Source: Geobacillus vulcani PSS1 (GTDB lineage: Bacteria; Bacillota; Bacilli; Bacillales; Anoxybacillaceae). Taken from it: a stretch of 64,000 bases of DNA. The position numbers and the translations under genes were made by a program. Location: positions 310,001-374,000 of the forward strand of contig NZ_JPOI01000001.1 of assembly GCF_000733845.1 (NCBI RefSeq), in the 5' to 3' direction. The notes under the pieces were generated by a model. That model did not search any database. It saw nothing but the letters and a program-made list of their open reading frames with translations, and had not been told where the DNA came from. Shown piece by piece: positions 10,292-14,407 of this stretch; positions within the stretch are counted from its first letter, which is position 1, and each line of letters opens with the position of its first letter.

Positions 10292-10840
10292 TTGAACATC
10301 GAAGAACGACTGCGATGCATTGCGGAACAGCCACGGGCGTATATACAAGGAACAGTGGAGTTTGTCAACAACGAATGGATCTTTTTTGATGAGGAAGAAG
10401 AGGAAGCATCCTTGATGGAAGAGATGGCGGAGCAAGACATCGAATGGTTTCATTGCGGGCATTGGCTGTCCGGGCAATGGCAGGATCAGGGCGCGGTCGC
10501 CACGGATCTTGGCGTCTTTCCCCTCGAAAACGGAGATCGCATCCGTTTCCGCAAGCGGTTGACTTATGCCTACCAACAATGGCTCGCCGCGCTTCCTGAT
10601 TCAACCTTTTTCCAGTTTGTTCAATGGCTGAACAGCCTCGGATTTTCGCTGTATGACTGCTTATATTGCTACAATGGCTTATTGTTTGCCAAATCGTCTG
10701 GCGTGAATTTCATCATTTACGACAACACTGAACAAATCGGCAGCATCCACCACTATTACGAGCGCGGACGGGCATCAAGCGATCGCTTTGAAATCACATT
10801 GAACAGCGGTGAGCGAGCCATTTGCGCCCAAATCGGCTGA
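10292..10840 (+). CDS. Conserved hypothetical protein, possibly DUF2777
   Basis: Unrecognised 182-residue soluble protein. A TTG start at 10292 is chosen because AAGGAGG lies 10 bases upstream; no in-frame ATG with a site is seen. The sequence is acidic near residues 30-50 (DEEEEEASLMEEMAEQD) and rich in aromatics, with a Cys pair in LYDCLYCYNG. I recall similar proteins in Bacillaceae under a DUF2777-type heading but cannot confirm it. It is divergent from asnO and followed by a noncoding mobile element, so context says little about function. Confidence 0.6.
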   Translation: MNIEERLRCIAEQPRAYIQGTVEFVNNEWIFFDEEEEEASLMEEMAEQDIEWFHCGHWLSGQWQDQGAVATDLGVFPLENGDRIRFRKRLTYAYQQWLAALPDSTFFQFVQWLNSLGFSLYDCLYCYNGLLFAKSSGVNFIIYDNTEQIGSIHHYYERGRASSDRFEITLNSGERAICAQIG

Positions 10841-10868
10841 ACCACCTGTTGATCCTCACGTCGTTTAA

Positions 10869-11110
10869 CGTAATTTCCAACAGAAGTCTCCCACCTCAAG
10901 GAATGTGCAGGGCAAAGCCCAATGAGTAGGGTGGGAGATGAATGTCGGTTGGCGATCGCCGACGGATGTGGTAATCTATTGTTAGAACGGACGCCTTCGG
11001 AGCGAAGGAAAGCGTAAAGGGTTCTTGTGTATGGCTTACCGTTCGGCGAACACGCACAAGTCGCTTGAAGCCTCCACCTCTAAGCGAAGCGTAGGTGGCG
11101 GGTAGTTCAC
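10869..11110 (+). mobile_element. Nonautonomous IS200/IS605-like element, copy 1 (candidate omega-RNA/PATE)
   Basis: A 242-bp noncoding unit preceded by TTTAA (10864-10868) and ending GGTAGTTCAC. A second copy at 14167-14407 differs by nine substitutions and one indel (about 96% identity), while the flanks differ completely. The left end folds as CTCCCACC...GGTGGGAG around a GGGCAAAGCCC hairpin. The interior has GGCGATCGCC and CCTTCGGAGCGAAGG hairpins. The right end has CCACCT...AGGTGG. This layout (target motif at the left, subterminal hairpins, no terminal inverted repeats, no target duplication) fits IS200/IS605 single-strand transposition and the guide-RNA region of TnpB elements. No tnpA or tnpB is present. 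This is inference from layout. Confidence 0.7.
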
Positions 11111-11234
11111 GTCCAACGGCGAGCGGTCAATATTTTTTTCCCATCCATCCTTCCGCCCGAATCGATGATCGCAGCTGTTTTGCTTTAGGCGGAGTGCCGA
11201 CAGGCGACGGCTGTCAACCGACGCGGGCGGGGGA

Positions 11235-14078
11235 TCACTTTTGCTTTTCCGTCACATACCGCATCACTTCTTCAGCAAGAAGCGGCGGACAAATCACATA
11301 CCCTTGCGCATACGTGCATTGCAAATCACGAAGCCGGTTGAGCTGTTCCGGCGTTTCCACCCCTTCGGCGATCGTCTCAAGCCCCAACCCTTGTCCCATC
11401 GTAATCATCGCCTTGACGATAGCCTCATCGGAGGCGTTGGCATGTAATTGTTCAATAAAAGCACGGTCAATTTTCAATATTGTCGCTGGCAACCGTTTTA
11501 AATAATGGAACGAGGAATATCCGCTGCCGAAATCATCGACGGCGATGCCGACGCCAATCTTTCTTAACTCGTCCATCGCCCGCAGCGTGCTGGACAGATG
11601 GCGGAGCATCGAATGTTCGGTCAGTTCGAGATGCAGGCACGACGGCGACAGACGCGACTGCCGAAGCGCTTGTTTGACATCATCCACAAACCGCTCATGC
11701 TGAAACTGGACAGGGGATACATTGACAAAAATCGCAAGCTGATCATCCCCCGTCATCTCCTGCCACCGCTTTGTCTGTTTGCAGGCCGTTTTCAGCACCC
11801 AGCGCCCAATCTCATGAATCAATCCGGTCTCTTCCGCCAAAGGGATGAATTCATCCGGCCGCACAAGCCCAAGCGTAGGGTGACGCCAGCGGATTAGCGC
11901 TTCCATTGCTCTTACCGCACGAGTATGTACATCCACAATCGGCTGATAGCAAAGAAACAGTTCATTCTCTTCAATCGCTTTGCGCAAATGGCCGCCCATT
12001 TCCAATCGATGCATTGCTTCTTCGTTCATTCGCGCGCAATAGCGCTCCACGCGGTTGCCGCCGCCTTTTTTTGCCATGTTGACAGCCATATCGGCGTGCC
12101 TAAGGAGCGCGTGTTCGTCCTCTCCGTCATCTGGAAACATTGCTAGACCAACGCTTGCTGTAACGAAAAATTCCTTTCCGTCGTACACAATCGGCCGCGC
12201 CACTTCGCGCACGATGCGGAGCGCCGCTTCCGTTGCCGCCTCGACCTCTGTTTTGAGCGGGAAAAGCAGGCAAAACTTGTCGCCATGAAATCGGCCAAGC
12301 TCCGCACCAAGCGGCAAGACGCGGCGAATACGCTCGACAAGTTGGCGCAAAATGTCATCTCCCGCGTAATGGCCGACACTGTCGTTAATCCATTTAAACC
12401 GGTCCAAATCGATCAAGGCAACCGCCGTCTTCCGCCGCTTCCGCTTCGCTTTTTCCAGATGTTCAGAAAGCAACTCCATCCATTTTGTCCGATTCGGCAA
12501 ATTCGTATCGGGATCGTAGTAGGCTAAATACGCAATTCTTTTTTCGGCCTTCTTCTGCTCGGTAATGTTATGGCCAATGCCGTAAATGCCAACCTTTTTC
12601 CCATCGACAATGATCGGGATGTTTTTCATTTGGAAAAGAAGTCGTTCGCCCGATTTCGTCGGCAGTTCCAAATGATATGTCTGCACATTTCCACGCAGCG
12701 CCCGGTAAAAATAGCGGGTGACGCGGGGAATATCATTCGGATGAATATACTTGAGCGAATTCGTATACAGAATTTCTTCTTTCTTGTAACCGAGCACTTG
12801 TTCAAAGGCAGGATTGACGCTTGTCAAACGGCCGTGCAAGTCCATCGAATAGACAATATCGGTGTTATGTTCAAACAACGACTTATATCGTTGCTCGGAC
12901 ATCTGCAGGCGAACATGCAGCCGCTCCATATCGCGTGAGGACGTGGACATGAGCCGGGCCAGCGTCATGATTCCTTCCGGTGGCGCCGGCAATGGCAATG
13001 ACAAACCGTTCTCCGCTGATGCCGCTGTTTCCGTCAGCGAAACAGCGGCAAACGCAGCCGGCCGCACAGCCGTATACGCATCTTTCATCAACACCTCGAC
13101 GGCTGGAAACAGCGCTGCCTGTCCAAGCGCGGCAGCCACGCCGTCCAACAGCGGGCGCGTATACCCGCTGAGCGCCGCGCTGTAGTAAAGCAACATTCCC
13201 CGAGCTGGTTGCTTGACCGTTTGCATCGCTGCATCACGCACGCTCCAGTAAAAGGACGGAGCATGAACATAGGCAAACCGAACCTTTTCTCCATTATGGA
13301 CATGGCCCCTTACGACAACCGAGCCATCCCGGTTGACAGCGACAATTGGCAGGCAGACATCGCGTCCGCTCCGTTCGACAAGAAACGGGAATTCCACTCC
13401 GGAAAGCGGCAGACGTTCGATAAATTCTTTGCCTAAATATCGTTCTAAATAAAGCGACGCTTTTTGCCCGTTGAGCTCGTCAATCTGCTGATCACGGCTT
13501 TTCGTGATGGAAAACGCCAAACCAATCGGCTCCCATAAGAATGGTGCGACACAGTGGCTGCGAAGCGCTGTTCCACTGAAAGAGACGGCGATCCCTCCGC
13601 GCTTAAGCCGACCGTCGGACGAAAATAACACGCTGCCTTCGGGAAGTGCGCAACCGACGATAGCCATTCGTTTGTTTGCAAGGGGCAAGTGGCGAAGCAG
13701 GGAAGGCAAAGCCGAGCGGTGATTCGTAAACAACAAAAGCAACGTCGTATCGTGATGGATGACCGCTTCCGCAATCAACGCCGCCATGCCATCCGGGCAG
13801 TCAAACTCATCGGCTGGCAGCACCAACGACGAAACGGTTGAAGACATCATCGACGTGATGCCAACAGCGAGATTCGTCTCCCCAGCCATTGGCAACGGTC
13901 CTGCCATCCCCATCATATGGGCACGCGGCCAACGACGGGCTACCGCGGCCATCGCATGGCGCACCGCTTCCTCATCGTTGCCTGCGACTTGGACAAACAA
14001 CGTCTCATCCAAGGAAGAACTATGCTCCCTGATCCAACGATCCAGCTCCTCGGCGCGGCGGCAGCAGAACCAACGCAT
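11235..14078 (-). CDS. FIST-PAS-GGDEF-EAL signalling protein, predicted c-di-GMP phosphodiesterase
   Basis: Cytoplasmic sensor of 947 residues with no clear membrane segment. The N-terminus (about 1-380) has FIST-type ligand-binding features (SGTALRSHCVAP, GMLLYYSAAL). A PAS domain follows (about 395-515, YKSLFEHNTDIVYSMDLHG), then a GGDEF domain (about 525-685) and an EAL domain (about 700-945). The cyclase motif is degenerate: HGDKF near 598-602 replaces GGDEF, so cyclase activity is unlikely. EAL residues look intact: EAL at 726, NVSP, ELTE, DDFGSGYSS, KIDR and AEGVE. Degrading c-di-GMP is therefore the predicted output. The ATG at 14078 lies 11 bases after GGAGGGGG. The gene is bracketed by the two mobile-element copies. 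Confidence 0.88.
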   Translation of the reverse strand: MRWFCCRRAEELDRWIREHSSSLDETLFVQVAGNDEEAVRHAMAAVARRWPRAHMMGMAGPLPMAGETNLAVGITSMMSSTVSSLVLPADEFDCPDGMAALIAEAVIHHDTTLLLLFTNHRSALPSLLRHLPLANKRMAIVGCALPEGSVLFSSDGRLKRGGIAVSFSGTALRSHCVAPFLWEPIGLAFSITKSRDQQIDELNGQKASLYLERYLGKEFIERLPLSGVEFPFLVERSGRDVCLPIVAVNRDGSVVVRGHVHNGEKVRFAYVHAPSFYWSVRDAAMQTVKQPARGMLLYYSAALSGYTRPLLDGVAAALGQAALFPAVEVLMKDAYTAVRPAAFAAVSLTETAASAENGLSLPLPAPPEGIMTLARLMSTSSRDMERLHVRLQMSEQRYKSLFEHNTDIVYSMDLHGRLTSVNPAFEQVLGYKKEEILYTNSLKYIHPNDIPRVTRYFYRALRGNVQTYHLELPTKSGERLLFQMKNIPIIVDGKKVGIYGIGHNITEQKKAEKRIAYLAYYDPDTNLPNRTKWMELLSEHLEKAKRKRRKTAVALIDLDRFKWINDSVGHYAGDDILRQLVERIRRVLPLGAELGRFHGDKFCLLFPLKTEVEAATEAALRIVREVARPIVYDGKEFFVTASVGLAMFPDDGEDEHALLRHADMAVNMAKKGGGNRVERYCARMNEEAMHRLEMGGHLRKAIEENELFLCYQPIVDVHTRAVRAMEALIRWRHPTLGLVRPDEFIPLAEETGLIHEIGRWVLKTACKQTKRWQEMTGDDQLAIFVNVSPVQFQHERFVDDVKQALRQSRLSPSCLHLELTEHSMLRHLSSTLRAMDELRKIGVGIAVDDFGSGYSSFHYLKRLPATILKIDRAFIEQLHANASDEAIVKAMITMGQGLGLETIAEGVETPEQLNRLRDLQCTYAQGYVICPPLLAEEVMRYVTEKQK

Positions 14079-14166
14079 AAACGATCATGCCCCCTCCGCT
14101 GACCAATCAGGCCAGAAAATTCAAAAAATGATTATTTCTTTTACCATACCATATTTTCGTCTTTAA

Positions 14167-14407
14167 CGTAATTTCCGACAGAAGTCTCCCCCCTCAAGGA
14201 ATGTGCAGGGCAAAGCCCAATGAGTAGGTGGGAGATGAATGTCGGTTGGCGATCGCCGACGGATGTGGTAATTTATTGTTCGAATGGACGCCTTCGGAGC
14301 GAAGGAAAGCGTAAAGGGTTCTTGTGTGTGGCTTACCGTTCGGCGAACACGCATAAGTCGCTTGAAGCCTCCACCTCGAAGCGAAGCGCAGGTGGCGGGT
14401 AGTTCAC
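14167..14407 (+). mobile_element. Nonautonomous IS200/IS605-like element, copy 2 (candidate omega-RNA/PATE)
   Basis: Second copy of the 242-bp unit, in the same orientation, one base shorter. It again follows TTTAA (14162-14166) and ends in TTCAC (14403-14407). It sits 88 bp upstream of the FIST-PAS-GGDEF-EAL start and abuts the yisL terminator on its right. If the right part is transcribed as a TnpB guide RNA, the bases after 14407 (inside the yisL terminator) would be its guide. Confidence 0.7.

Follow-up and report, generated by a model that had tools for sequence, protein, structure and literature searches.

The 242-bp element at positions 10869-11110 (+) of the window, by which we mean the whole 64,000-nucleotide stretch of DNA analyzed here, is best explained as a tnpB-free, promoter-driven guide-RNA PATE, a reading that we consider somewhat more probable than not. 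The element would consist of a left end, a relic tnpA promoter, a TnpB-type scaffold, and a right end, and it would be moved, and perhaps retained, in trans. The guide function is suggested by analogy with known TnpB RNAs, and transcription, TnpB binding, guide use, and retention are put forward as predictions. The relic tnpA promoter in front of the RNA, the finding that the RNA is better conserved than the ends, and the existence of solo RNA copies are additions to the first-pass annotation of this DNA. The features are located as follows:

10864-10868 (+), TTTAA target motif in the left flank, in the TAM position for the putative TnpB (46 of 55 aligned copies start with TTTAA)
10869-11110 (+), whole non-autonomous IS200/IS605-type element, 242 bp (from sequence, copies, and empty sites)
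10887-10938 (+), left-end subterminal hairpin, arms TCTCCCACC / GGTGGGAGA, by homology the putative TnpA recognition hairpin (from sequence and left-end comparison)
10949-10977 (+), predicted relic tnpA promoter, TTGGCG, 17 nt, TAATCT (by homology only)
10984-11110 (+), guide-RNA-like structured RNA (scaffold) with a predicted start at ~10984 (from covariation; start from the promoter position and the conserved AGAACG)
10985-10989 (+), GAACG, 5' strand of pseudoknot a, pairing with 11040-11044 (pairing in 94.7% of cells; A-U replaces G-C in two sequences)
10994-11008 (+), hairpin 1, CCTTCG-GAG-CGAAGG, of which GAGC at 11000-11003 can pair with the 3' GTTC (pseudoknot b, one G-U) (from covariation and pairing counts)
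11010-11066 (+), hairpin 2, outer stem AAGCG/CGCTT, 11010-11014 with 11062-11066 (from covariation)
11024-11029 with 11055-11060 (+), inner stem CTTGTG/CACAAG of hairpin 2, loop CGTTC at 11040-11044 (from covariation)
11067-11072 (+), GAAGCC linker, common to tnpB elements (from comparison with them)
11074-11098 (+), hairpin 3, the right-end subterminal hairpin (43/44 over the last 44 nt against L410, an element with tnpA and tnpB)
11105-11110 (+), GTTCAC, 3' end of scaffold and element, of which GTTC can pair with the hairpin 1 loop (from the pairing count in 39 copies)
11111-11126 (+), predicted 16-nt guide in the flanking DNA outside the element (by analogy with the ISDra2 reRNA as presented in the available part of PMC8612924)
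14162-14407 (+), copy 2 with its TTTAA (from alignment and empty sites in relatives)

The coordinates proposed in the first-pass annotation were confirmed from the sequence, with TTTAA at 10864-10868, 242 bp directly 3' of it up to 11110, and TTCAC as the last bases. The second copy, TTTAA at 14162-14166 plus 241 bp at 14167-14407, was 96% identical to copy 1 over 247 nt, as had been claimed. No ORF of 60 aa or more was found within the element; four ORFs of at least 20 aa (26-53 aa) lie wholly inside it, none showing any sign of being a gene, and the element is too short to encode a transposase. Subterminal palindromes were present at both ends, and inspection of the sequence revealed no terminal (inverted) repeats.

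In the own genome (one contig, 3,389,115 bp), blastn returned 25 matches ranging from 100% identity down to short end fragments: seven were full-length at 79-100% identity, one was full-length at 68%, and the remainder were partial. Two of the seven (L006 and L007) had left ends outside the blastn match, which were taken from the flank. Positions 10990-11110 matched 31 of the 41 family genomes, a count to be read with the fact that tnpB elements have right ends that match the last 44 nt as well; matches extending well past these 44 nt and the right hairpin were seen in at least 19 of the 41 among the matches listed, a lower bound with up to 21 candidates scored per genome. Sixty listed places, mostly in relatives, were fetched together with the own-genome matches, and 55 copies out of 68 loci were aligned after leaving out three exact duplicates and ten with unclear left ends. 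Among the aligned copies, 46 started with TTTAA, 38 ended with TTCAC, and 34 had both, whereas the others had diverged. A 16-base pattern scan of named genomes gave at least 118 stretches, mostly chance occurrences among the 80 listed; the RNA model gave strong matches in three of the 18 listed pattern loci that were tested with it (records of Priestia taiwanensis, Parageobacillus caldoxylosilyticus, and Geobacillus icigianus). The element is a widely copied, gene-less mobile element of thermophilic Geobacillus-type bacteria.

Comparison with relatives revealed empty sites for four insertions. For copy 1, three sister-species genomes (L074-L076) carried GTCGTCGAA or GTCGTCAAA joined directly to GTCCAACGG. 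For copy 2, the junction was visible in six of the 12 relative loci examined (L412, L413, and L415-L418; a thirteenth, L424, was left out of the count), with TTCAA or TTCGA running into CAAAAGCGG; L414 had a different left flank, and five loci had no seed match. A query with five own-genome copies yielded two further cases. At ~1895673, TTTAA was followed by ACAGTCGAC with an identical junction in seven genomes, and TTTAA or TTTAAA was joined to a diverged right flank in five more; at ~1787153, TTTAA was followed by a CCGGTT-like sequence in six genomes, and two further genomes had TTTAG with a diverged flank. With the third copy in this query, the junction contained a small gap in each of the two relatives seen, and the loci returned included no joined empty site for the remaining two. 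Target duplication, whose absence had been noted from the letters alone, was not found at the empty sites of the four insertions. Insertion is clean, 3' of a short fixed motif, and without duplication. This bears on the possibility of a chance repeat or of a standard MITE that depends on a DDE transposase, has terminal repeats, and duplicates its target: the element is short, multicopy, and gene-less as such a MITE would be, but inspection showed no terminal inverted repeats, the ends are IS200/IS605-like, and the empty sites refute this explanation, whose probability we regard as negligible.

The relatives at the empty sites of copies 1 and 2 lacked TTTAA (TCGAA, TCAAA, TTCAA, and TTCGA were seen), unlike those of the two other copies, and this was read as ordinary divergence. 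The idea that insertion converts the left flank to TTTAA was rejected because the two other copies have intact TTTAA at their empty sites.

Both ends of the element are common to elements that carry tnpA and tnpB. Among 20 loci fetched for whole elements, 19 encoded a TnpB of the TTTAA/TTCAC family, and a TTTAAC left end of the element's type was present in 11 of these 19 (L391-L396, L403-L405, L407, and L410); the other eight either had no tnpA, a partial one, or one outside the stretch or, in the case of L408, showed no left end of this kind in the 260 nt scanned. The full IS elements that the earlier annotation had proposed to look for were thereby found, with related copies giving the closest correspondence: the left end of L391 matched copy L096 at 64/66 and that of L404 matched copy L095 at 79/83, and over the last 44 nt L404 was identical to copy L096 (44/44) and L410 matched the window copy at 43/44. 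The left end of the window copy itself scored 51/85 against L391, 55/85 against L404, and 70/85, its best value, against a tnpA remnant in the own genome (at 2467328) that has the full left end. Matches of the last 44 nt to L404 and L410 were at 42-44/44, and right-end matches to the own-genome element L034 were at 32-33/52 (32/52 for the window copy).

Since both ends match those of tnpA+tnpB elements, the element can be classed on sequence grounds as a non-autonomous member of the TTTAA/TTCAC group of IS200/IS605 elements, of the PATE type. Its parentage and its description as a transposase-less, PATE-like element, both suggested in the first-pass annotation, agree with the shared ends, the absence of a transposase gene, the TTTAA target, and the clean insertion. 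The shared ends and the near-identical copies suggest mobilization in trans by TnpA. In the own genome, the locus L034 (~2717734-2719460) encodes TnpA (132 aa, Y1_Tnp) and TnpB (371 aa; OrfB_IS605, HTH, and TNB domains) in open frames, that of TnpB at 2717857-2718969 on the minus strand, and has the right end GGGTAGTTCAC, with hairpin 3 and hairpin 2 differing from those of the window element. Because the left tip has been lost and both reading frames have been kept, this pair could act only in trans. The tnpA+tnpB elements of Bacillales (TnpB of ~371-373 aa; L391-L396, L403-L405, and L410) have the same TTTAA target and ends matching those of related copies; unlike the gene-less element, they carry tnpA and tnpB and have another hairpin 2 and another 5' part of the guide RNA. 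Within the same genus as our element, a TnpB/IscB family of Geobacillus stearothermophilus, with several tnpB and iscB elements mobilized by one TnpA, has reportedly been described by Meers et al. in 2023.

Gene-less elements derived from IS605 are known as PATEs in Haloquadratum and Halanaerobium, and according to the available parts of the two reports (PMC3119063, PMC7290912) they resemble the present element in lacking a transposase gene, inverted terminal repeats, and target duplication and in having subterminal palindromes and IS605-type ends. These parts of the reports do not mention a guide RNA, and the Halanaerobium PATE described there keeps a tnpB tail and the whole right end, whereas the Geobacillus element has an interior that occurs in many species and combines a relic promoter with a conserved structured RNA. 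In the literature searched by title and abstract opening, no report could be recognized as dealing with this element or with a guide-RNA PATE driven by a promoter (the work of Meers et al. lay outside that search), and the available portions of PMC11043419, PMC11061315, and PMC11870625 contained nothing on it.

Between the left and right hairpins, the element consists of a promoter-like stretch and ~90 nt of RNA-like sequence. If only the ends mattered, TnpA would move the element and the inner RNA would be a functionless relic, an explanation that we consider rather unlikely. It is consistent with the known mechanism, by which ends alone are enough for TnpA mobility, and with the inner RNA being found in none of the tnpB elements obtained here. 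The folding energy of the right 127 nt, calculated for the single sequence, also equaled that of shuffled sequence (z 0.04), so stability is no argument for a structured RNA. The 'several stable hairpins' of the earlier annotation were thus upheld as structure by covariation but not as stability, and the evidence for structure is the covariation.

The structure counted comprised hairpins 1 and 2, the latter including its outer stem, together with the 5' GAACG paired to the hairpin 2 loop CGTTC. In a set of 34 more divergent sequences (A2, picked by the analyst, three from outside the family), 91.6% of cells paired and 12 of the 24 pairs had changed on both sides. None of 500 shuffles reached any of the five measures, a control that leaves relatedness in place as a confounder; slid versions of the structure, which keep relatedness, paired in 34-43% of cells. 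Among 39 closer copies (A1), in which a pairing of GGCTT in the hairpin 2 loop with AAGCC was scored, shuffles were as high in 91/500 cases for cells paired and in 78/500 for pairs changed on both sides, and clear covariation was confined to A2. The GGCTT-AAGCC pairing was dropped in favor of GAACG-CGTTC. The G-U changes in A2, together with the promoter, favor the + strand for the RNA.

The RNA stretch is better conserved than the transposon ends. Its identity in diverged pairs (<88% identity; 1,278-1,334 pairs depending on the region) was 0.846, compared to 0.738 for the left tip, 0.585 for the left hairpin loop, 0.703 for the promoter stretch, 0.819 for hairpin 3, and 0.756 for the right tip. 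The same RNA was also found behind different left ends, each close to that of a different tnpA-bearing element. This conservation above the ends, the compensatory changes across genera, and the varied left ends all argue against a functionless interior.

Judged by structure and conservation, the scaffold occupies the right end up to the boundary of the element. Its parts follow one another as hairpin 1, hairpin 2, GAAGCC, hairpin 3, GTTCAC, just as in tnpB elements of the TTTAA/TTCAC group. In ISDra2, as presented in the available text of PMC10097598, the scaffold runs to the boundary of the element, and U-5 to C-3 are base-paired to A-103 to G-105. Stem 1 with its pseudoknot strand, stems 2/3, and the right-end stem 4 of the ISDra2 reRNA (omega-RNA) have counterparts here, that of stem 4 by our own matching, and its 3' GUUCA likewise pairs back to the stem 1 region (PMC10097598, PMC8612924, as far as these texts were available). 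In our element, the 3' end reads G-6 U-5 U-4 C-3 A-2 C-1 and most copies have GGAAC as the loop of hairpin 1, which leaves room for an ISDra2-type 3' pseudoknot; the loop of the window copy is GGAGC, giving one G-U in pseudoknot b. Over 39 copies, pseudoknot b paired in 96.1% of cells compared to 3.5-50.0% for slid versions, with two pairs changed on both sides. Because 31-57 of 500 shuffles of the 3' letters reached values as high, these counts are compatible with pairing but fall short of proof. A cruder motif count found the pseudoknot in 42 of 50 copies, with some loops picked wrongly.

As a side observation, tnpB elements ending in TGTCAC instead of TTCAC (L190, L191, L197, and L391-L396) have GGGAC or GGGGC, not GGAAC, in hairpin 1, which fits the 3' pseudoknot. 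Elements ending in GTTCAA (such as L178 and L182) also have GGGAC, and the match between hairpin 1 and the 3' end is therefore not one to one.

The guide-RNA-like right end claimed in the first-pass annotation was thus borne out as to the possible ISDra2-type 3' pseudoknot and the covariation, but the inner RNA was unlike that of any tnpB element found, so the element does not appear to be a simple internal deletion of any tnpB element seen here. A model of the inner RNA, run against 61 loci, mostly with tnpB or iscB, gave a best E value of 0.73. In a whole-genome search with stricter filters, it matched 13 of 397 genomes of the order, in seven of 135 genera; in the family of Priestia taiwanensis, one of 19 genomes was matched. 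With five TnpA/TnpB queries, no tnpB was found next to the 60 fetched copies (one TnpB fragment lay 1.2 kb away) or in 30 loci from the order-wide inner-RNA search. Rfam 15 gave no match in the window at the gathering threshold and none for 10750-11230 at E values up to 10.

The interior may also be a separate structured RNA, of host or selfish origin, that was acquired as cargo with its own promoter and is not a TnpB guide RNA, which we judge fairly improbable. Pseudoknot a is not among the ISDra2 features described in the available part of PMC10097598, which would fit an unrelated RNA. In the other direction, the hairpin 1 loop GGAAC, GAAGCC, hairpin 3, and GTTCAC are ordered as in tnpB-element guide RNAs, and most copies are able to form pseudoknot b.

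Further evidence on this question comes from seven relatives of the RNA that lack a recognized left end and lie in the same direction directly upstream of genes (L145, L146, L125, L126, L387, L237, and L239). L145 and L146 come from two genera and precede the same downstream gene, with the RNA 13 nt before its start and the sequence upstream of the RNA not visibly alike. L125 and L126 lie upstream of a nucleotidyltransferase-like gene, L387 (genome G038) upstream of a membrane-protein-like gene, and L237 and L239 of Priestia taiwanensis upstream of an Spx-like gene and a 2-oxoacid oxidoreductase alpha subunit-like gene, all named by translation. L387 and the two Priestia copies retain hairpins 1-2 and pseudoknot a and lack the GTTCAC end; standing before unrelated genes, they favor the cargo explanation. 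Taken together, the solo copies are the strongest point against the guide-RNA reading and, as far as comparison of sequences can tell, point to a function in addition to, or in place of, the guiding of TnpB. The guide reading is also weakened by L034, the one tnpA+tnpB pair of the TTTAA/TTCAC family in the own genome, which is without its left tip and matches the right end at only 32/52.

The guide RNA could instead belong to IscB and lie on the other strand, its guide at the 5' end being taken from the same right flank. IscB elements of related genomes have a similar right-end hairpin, and a model including hairpin 3 matched iscB loci weakly (E 0.012 and above). However, when the 30 iscB loci fetched from nine of the 41 genomes were searched with the element by blastn, a single 19-nt match (E 0.22) was obtained, and the candidate was rejected. 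The iscB elements examined end in TTGAC, and the own genome had no IscB match. The G-U changes and the promoter, which favor the + strand, are likewise against it, leaving it very unlikely. The IscB (RRXRR) matches themselves (L147-L176) were distributed over nine of 41 family genomes, 19 of them in one genome (G004), and their right-end hairpin was similar to that of TnpB elements.

Returning to the TnpB guide-RNA reading, a source for the promoter is offered by the tnpA remnant at 2467328, in which the left end is followed by TTGGCG, 17 nt, TATAAT, and then tnpA. In the gene-less copies, a TTGGC-type sequence is still followed after 17 nt by a -10-like box, which ends a few bases ahead of the conserved AGAACG and reads TAGAAT in six printed copies besides the window copy. 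In the window copy, the promoter is weak (TAATCT), with 4/6 and 3/6 matches. In a crude scan of 55 copies, no -35-like site was picked up in 20, for some of them on account of a scanned stretch that began too late, and a few copies were mis-registered. From its sequence, the promoter that formerly served tnpA would now start the RNA at ~10984. Since TnpB can process the guide RNA out of its own mRNA, as stated in the available text of PMC10278001, a scaffold that has no tnpB and is driven by a promoter would set the element genuinely apart. The ISDra2 RNA overlaps the tnpB gene in the portions of the ISDra2 reports available, whereas the gene-less element has its own promoter-like stretch and an extra 5' pseudoknot instead.

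We propose that TnpA, provided in trans by tnpA+tnpB elements with the same ends, would cut at TTTAA and after TTCAC, and that the excised element would be pasted 3' of another TTTAA; these insertion steps are proposed on account of the element's anatomy and the empty sites. The promoter within the left end would drive an RNA of ~127 nt plus flank, and by reading through the right boundary, this RNA would gain a new guide at each insertion, identical to the right flank of that copy. Guided by the RNA, a TnpB from the matching family may cut the empty site once it has been re-sealed (TTTAA plus flank), after which repair would restore the copy. Cutting of the re-sealed site by TnpB in a way that favors the copy has been proposed for ISDra2 (PMC8612924, in the part available). 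The sequence of the predicted guide at 11111-11126 follows the empty site in three relatives, with small differences.

A bolder version of this proposal is possible, though we hold it only tentatively. The element would be a self-retargeting guide-RNA gene, made of promoter and scaffold, that keeps its ends only for a borrowed TnpA and acquires with each jump a new guide for another element's TnpB; some copies without ends would persist as solo RNAs before host genes, possibly as exapted regulators. If the guide-RNA reading is true, guide RNA and nuclease genes would be separate selfish units, and a minimal element could exploit its relatives for transposase and RNA-guided nuclease alike. Nature would then supply a two-component system in which to ask whether transposons are kept in genomes by TnpB cutting. 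The scaffold, uncoupled and with a promoter of its own, would be a natural counterpart to an engineered single guide RNA, and exaptation of guide RNAs could be tested on the solo copies.

Two minor observations concern the surroundings of the element. Seven own-genome places (L024, L027, L030, L037, L025, L028, and L032) have the common left end, such as TTTAACATAATTC or TTTAACGTAATTT, with a different continuation; some of the places that share only this left end look, by sequence, like additional gene-less families. Within the window, copies 1 and 2, both on the + strand, flank a single GGDEF/EAL-type gene (11235-14078, minus strand; named by translation).
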